Source: Verrucomicrobiia bacterium
GTDB lineage: Bacteria; Verrucomicrobiota; Verrucomicrobiia; Limisphaerales; JADLHS01
Length of the DNA: 64,000 bases
Direction: 5' to 3'
NCBI GenBank assembly: GCA_011525685.1
Contig: WYBW01000068.1
Location: 1 to 64,000 of the forward strand
Shown here one piece after another: positions 22,521-52,778 of this stretch. The position numbers and the translations under genes are program-made. Position 1 is the first letter of the stretch, and the number at the start of each line of letters is the position of its first letter. The notes under the pieces were generated by a model. The model had not been told where the DNA came from and ran no database searches. It worked only from the letters and a program-made list of their open reading frames with translations.

Positions 22521-22611
22521 ACTGGCGCAACGCCTGTCAGGAGAACTTTGGATTTCCGTGCAGAGCGCTCTTTGTCGTTTGCCAACCGGCGCGGCGCGGC
22601 ATAACAATGAG

Positions 22612-22684
22612 CGCGGCAATGGAGTTTGCCCTCCCCGCATGGGAAAACCGCCTGACCGTTTCAGCGCTGATAACTCCTACGAGT
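22612..22684 (+). promoter_or_regulatory. Fluoride riboswitch (crcB motif) 1, upstream of crcB
   Basis: The conserved core is readable: GGCAATGGAGTTTGCC, a CCCCGC-ATGGG hairpin, AAACCGCC, and GCTGATAACTCCTAC. GGAGTT at the 5' side pairs with AACTCC at the 3' side, as in the aptamer fold. Seven bases of the 3' strand (AACTCCT) are also perfectly complementary to AGGAGTT, which includes the crcB ribosome-binding site. This suggests translational control: without fluoride the site is paired, with fluoride it is free. Confidence 0.93.
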
Positions 22685-22707
22685 GACACCACATTCGCAG
22701 GAGTTGT

Positions 22708-23106
22708 ATGCTGACTTATCTCTGGATTGCCCTTGGCGGCGCGCTCGGCAGCGTGGGAAGATTCTGGCTCTCCGGCCTGGTCGCCCAGCGCCATGGCGAA
22801 ACCTTTCCGCTCGGCACGTTGATCGTAAATGTGACCGGCTGCCTGGCCATCGGCGTGGTGGCCACGCTGACCAGTCCGGACGGACGATGGCTCGCGCCGG
22901 TCAGCTTCCGCCAGTTTCTGATTTACGGCCTGCTCGGCGGTTACACGACCTTTTCCTCGTTCAGTTGGCAGACCCTCGAATTGGTGCAGGACGGCCAATG
23001 GCTGCGGGCTGGCTCAAACGTGGTCGGTTCGGTGGTGCTGTGCCTGGCGGCGGTCTGGCTGGGTCACGTGCTGGCGGCGAGCTTCAATTCCATGAAAGGC
23101 GATTGA
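22708..23106 (+). CDS. crcB: Fluoride channel Fluc/CrcB
   Basis: The product has 132 residues with four membrane helices. Family signatures are GGALGSVGRFW (10-20), GTLIVNVTGCLAIG (36-49, with the conserved Asn41) and GGYTTFSSFSWQ (77-88, the Phe-box residues Phe82 and Phe85). Fluc forms a dual-topology dimer that lets fluoride leave the cell. A fluoride riboswitch directly upstream confirms the call. DUF190 follows after one base. Confidence 0.97.
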   Translation: MLTYLWIALGGALGSVGRFWLSGLVAQRHGETFPLGTLIVNVTGCLAIGVVATLTSPDGRWLAPVSFRQFLIYGLLGGYTTFSSFSWQTLELVQDGQWLRAGSNVVGSVVLCLAAVWLGHVLAASFNSMKGD

Positions 23107-23107
23107 T

Positions 23108-23467
23108 ATGCAAATCCCTCACCAGGCAGTCCTGCTGCGCATCTTCATCGGCGAAAGTGACCGCTGGGAACACAAACCCCTCTACGAAGCCATCGTGCTC
23201 AAGGCGCGCGAACTGCACCTGGCCGGTGCGACCGTCTTGCGCGGCCCGATGGGGTTTGGCAAATCCAGCCGCCTGCACACCGCGAAAATCCTTCGCCTCT
23301 CGATGGACCTCCCGCTCGTCATTGAAATCGTGGACAGCGAGGAAAAAATCAACGCGTTCCTGCCCGAACTGGACAGGATGATCGGCGGCGGCCTGGTGAC
23401 TTTGGAGAACGTGAAGGTGATCGAGTACCGCGGCGACGCCGTCGAACCGGGGTCGCCAGAAATTTGA
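23108..23467 (+). CDS. DUF190 protein, CrcB-associated
   Basis: The product has 119 residues with the DUF190 pattern: RIFIGESDRWEHKPLYEAIVLKARE, LAGATVLRGPMGFGKSSRLHTAKILRLS and LPLVIEIVDSEEKINAFLPELDRMI. This family has a PII-like fold and is often next to crcB. It is probably co-translated with crcB and may sense or modulate the fluoride response; its ligand is not known to me. The GPMGFGKSS run resembles a P-loop but is a family motif, not a Walker A. Confidence 0.93.
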   Translation: MQIPHQAVLLRIFIGESDRWEHKPLYEAIVLKARELHLAGATVLRGPMGFGKSSRLHTAKILRLSMDLPLVIEIVDSEEKINAFLPELDRMIGGGLVTLENVKVIEYRGDAVEPGSPEI

Positions 23468-23558
23468 AACTCAGGTTGCTCGGACGTGTCTCAACGCAAG
23501 ACCGGCGGCACACGAAAAACTTGCGGCGTGTTCTGCGTGGGCAGTAGTTTTGCCGAGG

Positions 23559-23645
23559 TCGGGCAATGGAGTCTGCCCGCTCCGGTCTTTCAGGCAAGGC
23601 CGGGGCAAACCGCCTGAGCCGGTTTCAGCGCTAATGACTCCTGCC
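23559..23645 (+). promoter_or_regulatory. Fluoride riboswitch 2, upstream of the antiporter
   Basis: The core is GGGCAATGGAGTCTGCCC, a variable stem, AAACCGCC, and GCTAATGACTCCTGCC. GGAGTC pairs with GACTCC. The 3' end, CTCCTGCCAA, can instead fold with TTGGCGGGAG (10 bp, one G-U, 6-nt loop), which buries the antiporter ribosome-binding site. The fold is therefore a mutually exclusive switch like the first one. Confidence 0.92.
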
Positions 23646-23670
23646 AACGCCGATTGGCGGGAGACAAGCT

Positions 23671-24891
23671 ATGCTCGAGAACATCTGGTTCATTGCGGCT
23701 TTCTGGATGGGATTGGCGCTGCTGGCCAGCCTGATCTCGATCCGGCTGGGCATCTCGGTGGCTCTGATCGAAATCCTCCTTGGCGTGGTCGTGGGCAACC
23801 TCCACACCGCCGATCAAGCGCCCCTCTTGCACACCACCGAGTGGACGAACTTCCTGGCGATGCTGGGCAGCGGCGTGCTTACGTTTCTGGCAGGCGCGGA
23901 AATTGACCCGGCATCATTGCGCGCCAATCTCCGGGCCAGCCTGAGCATCGGGATTCTGTCGTTCCTGCTGCCGTTCGTTGGCGTCTGGCTGTTCGCGCAG
24001 CACGGCCTGGGCTGGCCGATCCGGCAGGCGTGGATCGCGGGCATCGCGCTTTCCACCACGTCGGTCGCGGTGGTGTACGCCGTGATGATCGAGGGCGGAC
24101 TGAGCAGCACGGCGATGGGCAAAATGCTGCTCGCGGCCTGCTTCATCACCGACTTCGGCACTGTGCTGGCGCTGGGCATCCTGTTCGCCGATTTCAACAT
24201 CTGGCTGGTCATTTTTGTGGCGGTGACGGCGGTACTGCTCTGGTTCATGCCCAGGTGGACCCAGTATCTCATCACCCGGCTGGGTGCGACGCGGGTCAGC
24301 GAACCGGAAGTCAAGTTCCTGTTCCTGGTCCTGTTCTTCCTCGGCGGACTGGCATCCACGGCCAAGAGTGAAGCGGTCCTTCCGGCCTACCTCTTGGGCT
24401 TGGTCGTGGCGGGGGTTTTTCTGCGCGACAAAACACTGGTCCACCGGATGCGAAGCATCGCCTTCGCGATTTTCACGCCCTTCTACTTCATCAAGGCCGG
24501 ATTGTTCGTGTCGCTGCCCGCGTTGGCGGCGGCGCTGGGCGTGATCGCACTGCTGCTGTTTCTGAAGATGGCCACCAAGGTCATCGGCGTGTGGCCCTTG
24601 TCACGGTGCTTCTTCATGCGCACCCGCGAGGCCAACTACACCGCGCTGCTCATGTCCACGGGACTGACCTTCGGCACGATCTCGGCACTGTTCGGACTGC
24701 AAAACCAGATCATCAGCCAGGAACAATACTCGGTGCTGGTCACGGTGGTCATCCTGAGTGCGTTCGTGCCGACGCTCATCGCGCAGAAGTGGTTTCAGCC
24801 GACCGCCAGGACGATGGTGGCGTGGGGACGGCTTTACCAACGCAGGATCAACGGCCAAGCCGGGTCACCGGCAACAGACAATGGAAAGTGA
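23671..24891 (+). CDS. Cation:proton antiporter, CPA2 (KefB/NapA-like)
   Basis: The product has 406 residues with about 12 membrane helices. Sequence features are GVLTFLAGAEIDPASLRANL, TTSVAVVYAVMIEGG, AACFITDFGTVLALGILF (the Asp-containing ion-binding helix) and FTPFYFIKAGLFVSLP. No cytosolic RCK/TrkA domain follows. Proton/cation antiporters are a known class of fluoride-riboswitch targets, thought to manage pH and HF cycling. A riboswitch precedes it, and uspA starts six bases after its stop. Confidence 0.92.
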   Translation: MLENIWFIAAFWMGLALLASLISIRLGISVALIEILLGVVVGNLHTADQAPLLHTTEWTNFLAMLGSGVLTFLAGAEIDPASLRANLRASLSIGILSFLLPFVGVWLFAQHGLGWPIRQAWIAGIALSTTSVAVVYAVMIEGGLSSTAMGKMLLAACFITDFGTVLALGILFADFNIWLVIFVAVTAVLLWFMPRWTQYLITRLGATRVSEPEVKFLFLVLFFLGGLASTAKSEAVLPAYLLGLVVAGVFLRDKTLVHRMRSIAFAIFTPFYFIKAGLFVSLPALAAALGVIALLLFLKMATKVIGVWPLSRCFFMRTREANYTALLMSTGLTFGTISALFGLQNQIISQEQYSVLVTVVILSAFVPTLIAQKWFQPTARTMVAWGRLYQRRINGQAGSPATDNGK

Positions 24892-24897
24892 GGCTCT

Positions 24898-25323
24898 ATG
24901 TATCGAAAGATTCTCGTCGGCTATGACGGCTCCAAAGGCGGCAGGGCGGCCCTGCGACGAGCCGCTGTGATGGCCAGGGAGTTCAACGCTCAACTCACGG
25001 CCCTGTGGGTGCGCGAGCCGCTGCCCCGCTACACCGACCTGCCCGGTGAACCGGAAAGCGAAGCGGAAGCGGCGGACGAGTATTTCCAGGAGCGTCAGAA
25101 GGAGGTGGCCGAGGTCGCTGCGCAGCACGGTATCCAGATCGCCTGTGAAACCGGGCGCGGCCATCCGGCCAAGACCATCGTCAAGATCGCCGACGAAGGC
25201 CGCTACGACCTGATCGTCGTCGGCCACAGCGACCACTCGGAGTTGTGGGGACGCCTGCTGGGCGACACCGCCGACCGCATCAGCGACCATGCCCATTGCA
25301 GCGTCTTGATCGTGAAATCCTGA
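24898..25323 (+). CDS. Universal stress protein UspA family
   Basis: The product is a single-domain protein of 141 residues. It starts YRKILVGYDGSKGGRAALRRA and ends VVGHSDHSELWGRLLGDTADRISDHAHCSVLIV, with the ATP-binding G-2X-G-9X-S-like signature near the end (the HSD and DHAHCS positions). It is co-transcribed with the antiporter under the second riboswitch. UspA genes are among known fluoride-regulon members. Confidence 0.93.
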   Translation: MYRKILVGYDGSKGGRAALRRAAVMAREFNAQLTALWVREPLPRYTDLPGEPESEAEAADEYFQERQKEVAEVAAQHGIQIACETGRGHPAKTIVKIADEGRYDLIVVGHSDHSELWGRLLGDTADRISDHAHCSVLIVKS

Positions 25324-25493
25324 TCCGGCTCGCTCTGCCGTTTCGAGCGCAGCGCCAGTTGCAACCGCCGGCTGCTCGCGCAGGCGTCGGGCAGGAAGGC
25401 GCGGTACGGCGGATCACCGTTCAAAGCGACCCAGCGCTGATGCACGGGCTGGACTGTGGTTGACCAACAGGCTGATGTCGCCGAGTTTGTGGC

Positions 25494-25557
25494 AAGGCAA
25501 TGGAGTTTGCCTCCCCGTGATCCGGGGAAACCGCCTTGTGGCTGATGACTCCTACCG
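25494..25557 (+). promoter_or_regulatory. Fluoride riboswitch 3, upstream of the ATPase-GTPase operon
   Basis: The core is AAGGCAATGGAGTTTGCC, a CCCCG-TGATC-CGGGG hairpin, AAACCGCC, and GCTGATGACTCCTACC. The base pairing GGAGT with ACTCC is kept. Downstream, CTACCG is complementary to CGGTAG just before the ATG at 25588, so the start region can again be paired with the aptamer's 3' strand. Confidence 0.92.
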
Positions 25558-25587
25558 AGCAGATAGGTCATGTCACGGTAGCGAGCC

Positions 25588-26301
25588 ATGTCAGCAAAAG
25601 TCCCAAACACGACTCGTTCACTTGATCCGCCTTTCGTCGGGCGAAGGGGGGAGGTAAAACGATTGCTTCAGCTTCACGCCCATCGCAAGCACGGGTTGAT
25701 TTTGGGACCGGCAGGGGTGGGAAAGTCCACACTGATCCGCCACGTGGCCGGCCAAGTGAACTTGCTGATGTGCCCGCAGACGACCCGACTGTCCGACATT
25801 TGCGGGGCAATGGAGCAACAGCTTGGTCTCGAGGCCGACGGTCAACATCTGGTCCAGCGCAAGAACCGGCTGCTACGGGCCTTGGCTGCCGCTGACCAGA
25901 CGGTGGTCTTCGACGGAGTGGGGTGGACGACGCCGAAGTTGAGTTCGTTCATCGAGGGAGTCAACCAGCGCGTGCCGGTTTGGATCGTCACGCGCTCGGA
26001 ACATTCGTGGGACATCGGGCATTTCTGGCCGTTGTTGACCCGGTTCACGCGCGTCGAACTCGAACCCTTTCGCCTGGCCGACACGTCTGGACTCATGGGT
26101 CGGCTGGCGGAAACCGGGGACATTCCCGCCTCTGCTTTGCAGGCAGCCCACTCTTGGCATCGGTTGTCGGCGGGCGTGCCGCGGGTGCCGGGCGAATTGC
26201 TGGCGGGCGTGGCCACGGGCGGGTATGATCTGCATGCCCGGTTCGGTCTGAAACTGCTCGATCTCGACCGGCGCATTCAACGGTTGTACTGCCGCGACTG
26301 A
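25588..26301 (+). CDS. P-loop ATPase (AAA-like), fluoride-riboswitch controlled
   Basis: The product has 237 residues. FVGRRGEVKRLLQLH precedes Walker A GPAGVGKST (40-48), as in AAA/STAND ATPases. The Walker B strand is TVVFDGVGW (Asp109) and the sensor-like strand is VWIVTRSEHS (131-140). The C-terminal third is helical (ALQAAHSWHRLSAGVPRVPGELL). No nuclease or membrane segment is seen. It is the first gene of a three-gene unit with a small helical protein and a dynamin-like GTPase. Its partner and role are unknown. Confidence 0.85.
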   Translation: MSAKVPNTTRSLDPPFVGRRGEVKRLLQLHAHRKHGLILGPAGVGKSTLIRHVAGQVNLLMCPQTTRLSDICGAMEQQLGLEADGQHLVQRKNRLLRALAAADQTVVFDGVGWTTPKLSSFIEGVNQRVPVWIVTRSEHSWDIGHFWPLLTRFTRVELEPFRLADTSGLMGRLAETGDIPASALQAAHSWHRLSAGVPRVPGELLAGVATGGYDLHARFGLKLLDLDRRIQRLYCRD

Positions 26302-26324
26302 AACGATCTTTGCCCTTTGCAGAC

Positions 26325-26783
26325 ATGAATCCCCACTTGCCACTGACCGAGCCTCAAGAGCGCAAGCTCATGGTGACGCTGGCGGAGTTGGAACGCCGGT
26401 TGGCGGCCTTGCGGCGCACGTTGGACTGCCCACCCGAAGATCTGCGGCTCGTCCACCATGAGGACCGCATTCGGGCGGACGAAGCCGCTGGCCTGCGACA
26501 GAAAGTCGAAGCGGCGCGGCTTTGCCTGTGCCGCATGGCAGACACGCTGGGGTTGTCCCCTTCGACCGAATCAGTGCGCCGGGGCTTTGTCGCGGGCCTC
26601 GAACTGGCCGGCATCTCGTTGTACGAGGCTCATCCTGCAGGCGAAATGCGTGGCTGTGGCGAGCTGGCCCCGGCAAGCGCCGCGTATTTGAAGGCGGAAC
26701 TGCCGCGACTCGAAGCCCATGTGCGCGACCTGATCCGACTGCTCGAGCGTGGTGACAAACTGGAGCCGCCGGAAGCGGTATGA
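26325..26783 (+). CDS. Small helical protein of unknown function
   Basis: The product has 152 residues from the ATG at 26325. Helices with heptad-like spacing (ERKLMVTLAELERRLAALRRTL near the start and AYLKAELPRLEAHVRDLIRLLER near the end) suggest a coiled-coil or helical bundle. It contains CRMADTLGLSPSTESVRRGF in the middle. I do not recognise the family. Its stop overlaps the GTPase start as ATGA, so the two are made together and may interact. Confidence 0.75.
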   Translation: MNPHLPLTEPQERKLMVTLAELERRLAALRRTLDCPPEDLRLVHHEDRIRADEAAGLRQKVEAARLCLCRMADTLGLSPSTESVRRGFVAGLELAGISLYEAHPAGEMRGCGELAPASAAYLKAELPRLEAHVRDLIRLLERGDKLEPPEAV

Positions 26784-28468
26784 ACTTGCGCGAACCGAAT
26801 CACATTCTCGAACGCGTGGAGGTCGTCGCCGCAGACTTGAAGCTGACCAGCCTGCAACCGCTGATTGACGCCTGCCGCAACCAGTTCCGGAGCCAGGACT
26901 CGGTGGACGTGGCCGTTTTCGGACGATTCAAGGCGGGCAAGAGTTCATTCCTCAACCATCTGGCAGGACGCACGGTGCTGCCGATTGGCGTCGTGCCGTT
27001 GACGGCGGTCATCACCCGACTGCGCCATGGGGAACGGGCGGGCGCGGAAGTCCGGTTCCTTAACGGGACCGGCCGATCAATCTCGTTGAACGAAGTCGGC
27101 CTCTACGTCGCCGAAAACGAGAATCCGAACAACGAAAAGCAGGTGGCATCGGTGGAGGTTGAGTTGCCGGAATTGAGGCCGCTCGCCCCGCTGCAGTTCG
27201 TGGACACGCCCGGGCTGGGCAGCGTGTTCACGCAGAACACGGAAACCGCGATGAACTGGCTGCCGAACGTCGGCGCTGCGTTGGTGGCGGTCAGCGCCGA
27301 CGCGCCGCTGTCCGAGCGTGACCTGGCCCTGCTGGCCACGCTTCGCAACTACACGCCCAAGATTGTCCTGCTGCTGACGAAGGCGGATTTGCTTACGGAA
27401 GCGCAGCGATCCGAAGTGCGCGATTTCGTGCTGGCTCAGTTGAACCCTGGCAGCGGACGTGAGTCCGCTCACAATTCAAAATCCGAAATCCGAAATCCGA
27501 AGTCCGAAGTTCCTCCTCCGGTGTTCTTTTATTCCATCAAACCGGAGCTGGCGGCGATGAAGTCCAAGCTGCTCTCGGAACTGCTCGAACCACTGCGGGA
27601 ACATCGCGGCGAAGCAGCCGGGCAAATCCTCCGGCACAAGGTGGAATCGTTGCGGAAACAAGCTCTGGACTACGTGCGCGTCGCCCTGGCGGCCGCCACC
27701 CAGGCCGAGTCCGCCCGGCAGGCATTGAGAGAGCGACTCGACGAGGAAGGCAGACAATTCGACCTGTTCCGGGTCGAGTTGGAAGTGCTGACGCGGCAGT
27801 GGTCGGTCAAGGCATTGGAGCAATCGCTGGCGCGGTTGCAGCCCATTCAACGTGCGTTGCAGGAAAGGATCACCCGCGAACTTCAAGCCGAGTTTGGCCA
27901 GTGGCAGATGCGGCTGCCGGCGCTGCTTGAGGCGTGGCGCAACTGGGTGGGGTCATTCCTTGATCGCGAGTTGAGCGCGGTTTCGCGCGAGCAGCGGTCC
28001 ATGTTTTGTGAGCCGGTCACGATGGCTGCCGCTCATCTCACGCGCAGCGTCCGGGCGTTCCATGACCGTCTGACCGGGCACGTCCAGGCCGCGCTGGGAA
28101 TCACGCTCTCGCCGCGTGAGTTCGCTCTCGAAGTGCGTCAAGCCGATGCGCCGCCGGTGGATGTGAGCTACGCGTTCGATGCTGCTTTCGGGATCGTCAG
28201 CAACGTCATCCCGGCCTCGGTGTTCCGTCGCGCGATCCGAAGGGTCTTGCTCCGCAAGGCGCGGTACGAGGTTGAAAAAAACCTCGCGCGCCTGGCCGCA
28301 GGTTGGAACGACCGCGTTGGGGTTGTCATTGGCGAACTGCGCCGGCAAACGGAGCAAGCTGCACGGAACGAGTTGAAAGAGCTGGCGCGGATGGCCGATC
28401 AAGTCCCGTCCAACGTCCCGCGCCTCCGCGAGCAAGCGGCACAACTGGAAGCCATGTCGCTGGCCTGA
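26780..28468 (+). CDS. Dynamin-like GTPase (bacterial DLP)
   Basis: The product has 562 residues. G1 is GRFKAGKSS (48-56), G2 Thr75, G3 DTPGLG (142-147), and G4 TKAD (200-203). A long helical region follows (about 255-562), rich in coiled-coil and ending with basic helices (RAIRRVLLRKARYEVEK). This layout fits bacterial dynamin-like proteins, which bind and remodel or repair membranes. An in-frame repeat (residues 226-246, NSKSEIRNPKSEV) sits just before the G5-like YSIK. The gene overlaps its upstream neighbour by four bases. It is under the third fluoride riboswitch, unlike any dynamin I know of. Confidence 0.9.
   Translation: MNLREPNHILERVEVVAADLKLTSLQPLIDACRNQFRSQDSVDVAVFGRFKAGKSSFLNHLAGRTVLPIGVVPLTAVITRLRHGERAGAEVRFLNGTGRSISLNEVGLYVAENENPNNEKQVASVEVELPELRPLAPLQFVDTPGLGSVFTQNTETAMNWLPNVGAALVAVSADAPLSERDLALLATLRNYTPKIVLLLTKADLLTEAQRSEVRDFVLAQLNPGSGRESAHNSKSEIRNPKSEVPPPVFFYSIKPELAAMKSKLLSELLEPLREHRGEAAGQILRHKVESLRKQALDYVRVALAAATQAESARQALRERLDEEGRQFDLFRVELEVLTRQWSVKALEQSLARLQPIQRALQERITRELQAEFGQWQMRLPALLEAWRNWVGSFLDRELSAVSREQRSMFCEPVTMAAAHLTRSVRAFHDRLTGHVQAALGITLSPREFALEVRQADAPPVDVSYAFDAAFGIVSNVIPASVFRRAIRRVLLRKARYEVEKNLARLAAGWNDRVGVVIGELRRQTEQAARNELKELARMADQVPSNVPRLREQAAQLEAMSLA
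27472..27509. repeat. In-frame ATCCGAA repeat inside the dynamin-like gene
   Basis: Tandem AAATCCGAAATCCGAAATCC-type units encode SKSEIRNPKSEV. They are a variant of the cas-locus repeat and also occur in hom and between nuoH and nuoJ. Confidence 0.85.
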
Positions 28469-28536
28469 ATACTCACCAAACGCCGCCACGCCCCCGCTGG
28501 CTTAACCGCACCGTGGTTGGCGTTTGATTTGCCGGC

Positions 28537-28785
28537 TTGTTCAGTGCTTCGTCTCACGAGATCGCCACGACGGTATTGCCGGCGTTTCTGGCCACTATGA
28601 GCGTGGCGGCGGCGTGGCTGGGGATCATCGAGCGCGTCAGCGACGGGTTGTCGTCGTTCGCCAAGATGGCCGGCGGTTATTACACGGAAAAGTTGGCGCA
28701 GCGCAAACCCATCGCCGTGCCGCGGGACTTTACGTGTTCCTCAAGTGTGGCCTCTTCCGCAGCCCAACACGCTTCTCGTGCCTGA
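28537..28785 (+). pseudogene. Remnant of an MFS transporter
   Basis: The reading frame gives SSHEIATTVLPAFLATMSVA, then LGIIERVSDGLSSFAKMAGG and YYTEKLAQRKPIAV, which looks like the first two helices and loop 2-3 of a major facilitator transporter. Similarity ends after about 60 residues and a stop follows. The rest of the gene is absent. It lies downstream of the dynamin-like gene on the same strand and may be a former member of the fluoride island. Confidence 0.65.
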
Positions 28786-30115: not shown

Positions 30116-31438
30116 ATGACACGGAAGGTGCATCTCGGCATGATCGGCGGCGGCACGGTGGGCAGCGGCGTTTACCACGCCCTGCATCGCAACGGCCGGC
30201 TGTTGTCTTCGCGCATCGGCGTGGAGGTCAAAATCCACAGAATCGCGGTGAAAGCCTTTGAAGAACCGCGTCCCTACGAAATTCCGCGCGGCTTGATGAC
30301 CACCGACTGGCAGAGCGTGGTCCATGATCCCCAAGTCAACATCATCGCGGAACTCGTCGGCGGTACCGGCCTCGCGCGAACGATGATCCTCGCCGCGCTC
30401 AAGCTGGGCAAACCGGTCATCACCGCGAACAAGGCGCTCTTGTCCGAACACGGCGAGGAATTGTTTGCCGCAGCGCGGAAGTACGGGACGAACCTTTACT
30501 ACGAGGCCGCCGTGTGCGGCGGGATTCCCATCATCAAATCGTTGCGCGAAGGTTTTGTCGGCAATCGGATCGCCGCCCTCTACGGCATCGTCAACGGCAC
30601 GTGCAATTACATCCTCACCCGGATGAAGCTCGAGGGCGCGGACTTCGACGCCGTTCTGGCGGACGCGCAGAAGCAAGGCTATGCCGAGACCCCGCCGGAC
30701 CTGGACATTGACGGCTGGGATTCGCAGCACAAGATCGGCATCCTCGCGTCGCTCGCGCACGGTTTTTGGGTCAGCCCCAAGCGGATTCACGTCGAAGGTA
30801 TCCGGCCCATCAGCGCGCTGGACATCAAGTTTGCCGGGCAACTCGGTTACACGATCAAGCTGCTGGGCATTGTGAAGCAAATCCGAAATCCGAAATCCGA
30901 AATCCGAAACCGGATTCAGGTCTCGGTGTATCCGGCGCTCATCCCGAGCGGCCATGTGCTCGCGGATGTGAACCACGTGTTCAACGCCGTGTTCGTCCGC
31001 GGCGACGTGGTGGGCGATACGTTGTTCTATGGCCGCGGCGCCGGCAAGGACGCCACGGCCAGCGCGGTGTTGAGTGATCTGGCGGATGCAGCGCTGGATT
31101 TGAAGTTCGGGACGAAACATCGCGTTCCGCCGTTTGTGCCACATGAACGCGACGGCGCCGTGCTGCCCATCGAGCAGGTGGTCTCCCGCTACTTCGTCCG
31201 GTTGAATGTCGTGGACCGGCCCGGTGTACTGGCCAAAATCTCGGCCATCCTCGGCGCCGCCCGGATTGGCATCTCCTCGGTCATCCAGCCGGAAGCGCAC
31301 GAGGGTGGGAGCGTGCCGCTGATTCTGATGCTGCACGACGCGCCGAACGGCGCCGTGACCCGGGCGTTGGCCAGGATTGGCAGGCTGCCCGTCGTCAAAG
31401 GCCGGCCGGTGAGGATTCGGGTGGAAAGTTTCGAATGA
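30116..31438 (+). CDS. hom: Homoserine dehydrogenase
   Basis: The product has 440 residues. The N-terminal NAD(P)-binding fold has MIGGGTVGSG (9-18). The catalytic domain has PVITANKALLSEHG, CGGIPIIKSL, GIVNGTCNYILTRM and YAETPPDLDIDGWDSQHKI, a conserved run that includes the active-site acids and Lys. A C-terminal ACT domain (YFVRLNVVDRPGVLAKISAIL) allows threonine feedback. An in-frame repeat (IRNPKSEIRNR, about residues 255-265) lengthens a turn between two strands. thrC and lysC lie downstream. Confidence 0.96.
   Translation: MTRKVHLGMIGGGTVGSGVYHALHRNGRLLSSRIGVEVKIHRIAVKAFEEPRPYEIPRGLMTTDWQSVVHDPQVNIIAELVGGTGLARTMILAALKLGKPVITANKALLSEHGEELFAAARKYGTNLYYEAAVCGGIPIIKSLREGFVGNRIAALYGIVNGTCNYILTRMKLEGADFDAVLADAQKQGYAETPPDLDIDGWDSQHKIGILASLAHGFWVSPKRIHVEGIRPISALDIKFAGQLGYTIKLLGIVKQIRNPKSEIRNRIQVSVYPALIPSGHVLADVNHVFNAVFVRGDVVGDTLFYGRGAGKDATASAVLSDLADAALDLKFGTKHRVPPFVPHERDGAVLPIEQVVSRYFVRLNVVDRPGVLAKISAILGAARIGISSVIQPEAHEGGSVPLILMLHDAPNGAVTRALARIGRLPVVKGRPVRIRVESFE
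30879..30910. repeat. In-frame ATCCGAA repeat inside hom
   Basis: Repeated AAATCCGAAATCCG units encode QIRNPKSEIRNR. Homologues I remember have only a short turn here, so the repeat appears to be an addition. Confidence 0.85.
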
Positions 31439-52635: not shown

Positions 52636-52778
52636 TGAAATCCGAAGCTCGAAATCCGAAGCGCGAAAAAAGGCCGAATCCCAAGATTCCAAACGTTGTC
52701 GGGCGGGCTGTTTTTTCGGCGTTCGGATTTCGGAATTCATTCGGATCTCGGCGTTCGGATTTCGGAATTGGTCTGCAA
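52636..52778. repeat. ATCCGAA/TTCGGAT repeat between nuoH and nuoJ
   Basis: The left part (52636-52665) has AAATCCGAAGCTCGAAATCC units and the right part (52720-52778) has GTTCGGATTTCGGAATT units, so the two halves are inverted. It is the same variant family as in the dynamin-like gene and hom. Confidence 0.8.

Follow-up and report, generated by a model that had tools for sequence, protein, structure and literature searches.

A fluoride riboswitch precedes a dynamin operon in a verrucomicrobial fluoride-resistance island and recurs upstream of bacterial dynamins

Fluoride riboswitches (the crcB motif, RF01734) and bacterial dynamins are each known. Expression of the mycobacterial dynamin IniA, from the iniBAC operon, is drug-induced; the protein cuts membranes in vitro, supports drug tolerance and is believed to preserve membrane integrity (PMC6715688). 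In Campylobacter, the N-terminal domain of Cj-DLP1 captures Cj-DLP2, and GTPase activity and lipid binding are thereby switched on (PMC6104087). Here we analyze 64,000 nucleotides of a Verrucomicrobiia genome (contig WYBW01000068.1, positions 1 to 64,000; the window), in which a fluoride riboswitch heads an operon encoding an ATPase, a small helical protein and a dynamin-like GTPase. What is new is that switch and dynamin occur together, with a third component, a dynamin domain encoded on its own. A literature search returned no paper combining “fluoride riboswitch” with “dynamin”, the gene list of the 2012 regulon paper lying outside that search, and crcb, fluoride and dynamin occurred together only in a cancer paper. 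Dynamin goes unmentioned in the founding crcB-motif paper, in a riboswitch review and in a 2024 review of fluoride resistance (PMC11139923).

The dynamin operon is composed of the following elements.

25487-25561, + strand: fluoride riboswitch 3 (RF01734, 52.5 bits, E 1.1e-11), heading the dynamin operon
25545-25589, + strand: expression platform hairpin, in which the aptamer strand ACUCCUACCG pairs with the leader (RNA fold, -15.5 kcal/mol)
25588-26301, + strand: P-loop (AAA_16/STAND-like) ATPase, 237 amino acids (Pfam AAA_16/AAA_22, AAA_16 above cut-off)
26325-26783, + strand: helical protein, matching the N-terminal domain of the long fluoride dynamin
26780-28468, + strand: dynamin-like GTPase, 562 amino acids (Dynamin_N, E 5.3e-22; AlphaFold2 model with a mean predicted local distance difference test score, pLDDT, of 89.6)

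Riboswitches in the window were called with Rfam RF01734 (gathering score 34). In sequence and structure the aptamer of switch 3 scores above this curated cut-off (52.5 vs 34), and in the whole 6.7 Mb genome RF01734 is found only here and at two sites just upstream. A chance riboswitch was ruled out by the Rfam score, by the recurrence reported below and by there being only three such sites in the genome. The earlier note on this DNA, made from the letters alone, had placed a third fluoride riboswitch ahead of these three genes. The switch and the coordinates given there are correct, as are the ATGA overlap of the helical protein and dynamin reading frames (26780-26783) and the note's list of known fluoride-regulon genes (crcB, CLC-F, antiporters, UspA, DUF190, enolase and pyrophosphatase).

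The same arrangement recurs in other genomes. Within the order of the window's genome (57 genomes), the close dynamin family is present in six, all of them among the 11 genomes with any fluoride riboswitch, and in all six the switch leads the dynamin gene or its operon. A protein-pattern scan that took no account of riboswitches covered 84,980 species and yielded 80 loci, from which L094 and L095 were left out as matching in the GTPase domain only; the window and L013 were added to the remaining 78, again giving 80. The riboswitch model used for these loci was trained on nine Verrucomicrobiota switches and searched 1.18 Mb. A same-strand fluoride riboswitch was found at most 4.4 kb upstream in 70 of the 80 loci, with E 0.01 reached by 56 of these hits, and in 29 loci no more than 350 nt separate the switch from the dynamin match, the dynamin being the first gene. 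Rfam's own cut-off is passed at loci of Deltaproteobacteria, Planctomycetota, Actinomycetota and Acidobacteriota as well as Elusimicrobiota, Chlorobiota, Sumerlaeota and Riflebacteria. Two genomes, one deltaproteobacterial and one from the Chlorobiota, have a single fluoride riboswitch, and in both it is directly upstream of the dynamin. The earlier note had asked whether such switches recur and would have counted the genes lying elsewhere without one as a refutation; the outcome favored the link, which spans about ten phyla. As comparative genomics, the predicted control of dynamins by fluoride is solid.

Independent samples gave the same picture. The dynamin profile matched three of 289 genomes sampled from the window's phylum, namely the window's own and two others, and both of the latter have a fluoride riboswitch ∼200 nt upstream of the match (2/2). 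In the Acidobacteriota, the phylum of Pyrinomonas, 29 of 247 genomes had a dynamin match, and 29 dynamin regions were taken from them. A same-strand upstream switch with E < 0.01 was detected in 26 regions; a weak hit 30 nt before the open reading frame in L148 brings the total to 27/29. L159 is truncated by the end of its contig, and in L149, where the dynamin follows enolase near a contig end, no switch was detected. The Rfam cut-off was passed in 14 of the 15 regions checked, with the switch upstream of the dynamin in 13. Most of these proteins carry the P-loop GQFKRGKST in place of GRFKAGKSS, and the link thus extends past the pattern used for the scan.

As controls we used 14 further Dynamin_N proteins from sister genomes. 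Their flanks, covered to a distance of at most about 5 kb, contained no switch, and genes for CrcB, DUF190, an antiporter or a universal stress protein (Usp) were absent nearby. The window encodes one dynamin; the other, weak match of its genome is on a separate contig and, over flanks of the same extent, likewise has no switch and none of these four genes nearby. By chance, a dynamin with a different function, for example in phage defense or general stress, could have come to stand behind a fluoride switch in this lineage. The Usp gene of the neighborhood points to general stress, and PADLOC reports a weak similarity of the dynamin to LeoA, which scores 39 bits and is concentrated in the GTPase region. 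However, fluoride riboswitches directly lead dynamins in about ten phyla, in many gene orders and in several dynamin clades. A chance neighborhood is already contradicted by this recurrence and is extremely unlikely. Annotation as a phage-defense gene was rejected, the PADLOC matches to LeoA and LeoBC being weak.

The window operon is a dynamin operon within a fluoride-resistance island, the remainder of which lies upstream.

22606-22686, + strand: fluoride riboswitch 1 (RF01734, 40.8 bits), heading crcB-DUF190
22708-23106, + strand: crcB, fluoride channel (Pfam CRCB, E 3.3e-29; NCBIfam equivalog above cut-off)
23108-23467, + strand: DUF190 protein (Pfam DUF190, E 1.9e-42)
23553-23650, + strand: fluoride riboswitch 2 (RF01734, 34.2 bits), heading antiporter-Usp
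23671-24891, + strand: CPA2-type cation/proton antiporter (Pfam Na_H_Exchanger, E 1.9e-39)
24898-25323, + strand: Usp (Pfam Usp, E 5.3e-33)

With aptamers above the cut-off and with crcB, DUF190, antiporter and Usp genes, the island resembles the described fluoride regulon; it differs in that switch 3 is predicted to control a dynamin, a helical protein and an ATPase. Several families recur in the dynamin loci: DUF190 in 38 loci, crcB, the CPA2 antiporter and the ATPase in 27 each, enolase in 22, Usp and MFS transporters in 17 each and a calcineurin-like phosphoesterase in 16. Operons in which the riboswitch is followed by CPA2-Usp-dynamin (L013), CPA2-Usp-enolase-ATPase-helical-dynamin (L017) or crcB-DUF190-DUF190-dynamin-helical (L060, Pyrinomonas) tie the dynamin to known fluoride genes. 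So does L039, where riboswitch and dynamin are followed by an 857-residue protein that we take, from its sequence and with no profile run, to be a membrane pyrophosphatase. The ATPase-helical-dynamin trio was seen in the window, L017, L026 and L031. In this strict form the trio is found mostly in Verrucomicrobiota, the dynamin being the recurring core, and many relatives encode two dynamins together.

The common operons with crcB, DUF190, antiporter and MFS genes could also mean that the dynamin serves the transporters, placing, clustering or recycling CrcB, antiporter or MFS proteins or shedding fluoride-laden vesicles, instead of repairing leaks. Against this, in several genomes either the dynamin stands alone behind the sole fluoride riboswitch, as in L075, or the crcB genes are elsewhere. 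Moreover, no bacterial dynamin is known to handle ion channels. We regard such a service as unlikely.

A different explanation is that fluoride inhibits dynamin-type GTPases (as GDP-AlFx or GDP-MgFx) and that the cell compensates by overproduction, a response also suggested for enolase and pyrophosphatase; the dynamin would then have an ordinary role and contribute nothing special to resistance. Enolase, a fluoride-inhibited enzyme, is present in 22 of the same loci, overproduction under inhibition is an accepted interpretation for it (PMC11139923), and GDP-AlF4 is a standard trapped state of dynamins, represented by PDB entries among our fold matches. However, enolase is universal, whereas the dynamin is accessory (6/57 and 3/289 genomes, always with a fluoride riboswitch). 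Moreover, two separate dynamin clades have been recruited, and the ordinary dynamins of sister genomes are without fluoride control. Compensation for an inhibited target is unlikely in our judgment.

The GTPase motifs of the window dynamin are intact (G1 GRFKAGKSS, G2 with switch-I T75, G3 DTPG, G4 TKAD), in line with the earlier note, and their key residues are invariant or nearly so across 44 homologs. In the AlphaFold2 model the GTPase domain is followed by a helical neck and trunk, a predicted fold shared with IniA, BDLP and mitofusins. Structural matches include Fzo1/mitofusins (9kfe, Z 27.3, 296 residues, root-mean-square deviation (rmsd) 2.9), IniA (Z 23.0, 487 residues, rmsd 12.4) and BDLP1 of Nostoc (2j69, Z 17.4, 404 residues, rmsd 11.9). 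GTPase, neck and trunk are shared with BDLP1 and mitofusins, but the predicted trunk tip (about 440-482) is short. A hydrophobic and basic stretch at this tip (∼466-495) is a candidate for lipid binding, and no mitofusin-type membrane anchor was identified in the protein. Like IniA, it is a single-chain dynamin with stress control, here predicted; the two share only about 18% sequence identity, and the window dynamin stands behind a fluoride riboswitch, whereas IniA is induced by cell-wall drugs. Among plasmid relatives, every match covers <40% of the query. A 7-bp tandem repeat, AAATCCG, occurs at 27479-27508, 30879-30908 and 52715-52769 (nine matches vs 0.1 expected). It lies inside two reading frames, those of the dynamin and of a homoserine-dehydrogenase-like protein, and adds an insert of the NPKSEIRNPKSE type, which the dynamin model shows as disordered.

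By sequence, the closest relatives of the window dynamin in the PDB are Cj-DLP1 and Cj-DLP2. That pair combines a short dynamin with a long one carrying an N-terminal domain, an arrangement also found at many fluoride loci; the window differs in having one dynamin, with the N-terminal domain as a separate protein. For this helical protein, the start at ATG 26325 agrees better with homologs than TTG 26310. It matched no Pfam family and had no significant match among solved structures. A profile of the free helical proteins matches the first ∼140 residues of a second, longer type of fluoride dynamin (∼670-750 amino acids), with E down to 2e-15. The free form was found in 13 of the 80 loci (11 in the count of neighboring families) and the fused form in 21, with both in none (hypergeometric P 0.013). 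Judged from these matches, the helical protein is a separately encoded version of the long dynamin's N-terminal domain, a relationship suggesting that it and the window dynamin bind each other. The earlier note had suggested a loading or anchoring partner; an unrelated helper it is not. Tree building places the long fluoride dynamins in one clade and the short ones in another, with an unsure deep order, and one control dynamin joins the long clade on a long branch. Most long dynamins also sit behind a fluoride switch. The N-terminal domain is modeled with low confidence in the long dynamin (pLDDT about 40-70). The ATPase shares its Walker A and a GNPG motif with 11 homologs.

The leader 3′ of the switch 3 aptamer can pair with the aptamer's 3′ strand (AUGACUCCUACCG with CGGUAGCGAGCCAU), and this pairing ends with the A and U of the ATPase start codon. 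In the computed fold, the ACUCCUACCG hairpin reaching the start codon competes with the pseudoknot for this strand. The layout GACUCCUACCG...CGGUAGCGAGUCAUG is kept in relatives with differing loops, and in three of them the hairpin is far more stable than shuffles (z -3.2 to -6.5). As the pseudoknot takes up ACUCC on fluoride binding, the start codon should be freed, making this a translational ON switch; we infer this direction from the aptamer class. Switches 1 and 2 follow the same principle, with hairpins of z -5.1 (sequestering the Shine-Dalgarno sequence) and -4.5, respectively, in RNA folding against shuffles.

We thus consider the following course of events. As intracellular fluoride rises, it would be bound by riboswitch 3, and the ACUCC strand would be kept in the aptamer pseudoknot, leaving the leader around the ATPase start codon unpaired. 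Translation of ATPase, helical protein and dynamin would be turned on. The dynamin, probably assembled through the helical protein and with the ATPase as probable loader or regulator, would act at the inner face of the cytoplasmic membrane, where it may tether, fuse or cut lipid so that the membrane stays sealed. Meanwhile, hydrogen fluoride (HF) entry would drain the proton gradient needed by CrcB and the antiporter. HF, a weak acid, reduces the proton-motive force when it enters (PMC11139923), which makes sealing or reshaping the membrane a plausible need. Membrane repair appears the likeliest role. By analogy with Cj-DLP1, membrane assembly of the fluoride dynamin would be the task of the helical protein or domain. 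The reading as a whole, in which fluoride frees the start codon and a dynamin complex remodels or repairs the cytoplasmic membrane, we hold with moderate confidence. Fluoride might even act twice, through the riboswitch and by locking the dynamin as GDP-MgF3 or GDP-AlF4 in an assembled, membrane-bound state. The GTPase would then be both sensor and effector, coating or sealing the membrane where HF enters, but we see this as a long shot.

Several observations weigh against membrane repair under fluoride control. The window's own switch 3 hairpin has one mismatch and a z of only -1.7. With the Verrucomicrobiota-trained model, 14 of the 70 upstream riboswitch hits are weak (E > 0.01), although L047 and L075 among them pass Rfam's own cut-off; the hit at L053 is doubtful. 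In ten of the 80 loci an upstream switch was undetected: L024 is cut by a contig end, L019, L020, L057, L079, L085 and L091 adjoin other fluoride-island genes, and L068, L071 and L077 have neither an upstream switch nor neighboring fluoride-island genes. The dynamin is present in 6 of 11 riboswitch-bearing genomes of the order and in 3 of 36 of the phylum sample; with only a minority carrying it, it is accessory. In G001, a relative of the same genus, the dynamin is truncated and stops after 274 amino acids. Finally, in a profile comparison the helical protein and the Campylobacter assembly domain shared no sequence similarity; the profile aligned to Cj-DLP1 only from residue 146.

Bacterial dynamins are widespread, and few have a known trigger. 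The RNA switch names a trigger in about ten phyla, and the purpose of bacterial dynamins thus becomes testable with one cheap ion. It also suggests that fluoride resistance involves membrane remodeling or repair beyond pumping fluoride out, a possible arm in addition to the export, pH control and metabolic compensation described so far.

Some further features of these loci were observed. A 378-residue calcineurin-like phosphoesterase lies between fluoride riboswitch and short dynamin in L016 (5082-6218), L018 (6753-7889) and L022 (1285-2418), the last with a dUTPase_2/MazG-like C-terminal domain. L078 (429-607), L041 (1962-2194) and L137 (6923-7228) each contain two oppositely oriented fluoride riboswitches, separated by at most a few hundred bases, which apparently head divergent fluoride operons. 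In L033 (3650-4384) and many Acidobacteriota loci, a double-length DUF190 protein (∼244 amino acids, two DUF190 domains, weak P-II similarity) adjoins a single-domain DUF190. Broken relatives occur at L011 (5299-6042) and L015 (7960-8784), with an internal TGA in the ATPase of G021 and a short dynamin in G001, by decay or assembly error. Lastly, the 3′ end of the dynamin gene in the window is overlapped by one more feature.

28450-28719, + strand: decayed MFS transporter remnant with an in-frame stop (61% identity to residues 9-95 of the L029 MFS protein)

L029 has an intact MFS gene 3′ of the dynamin, of which the window keeps only the decayed N-terminal part.

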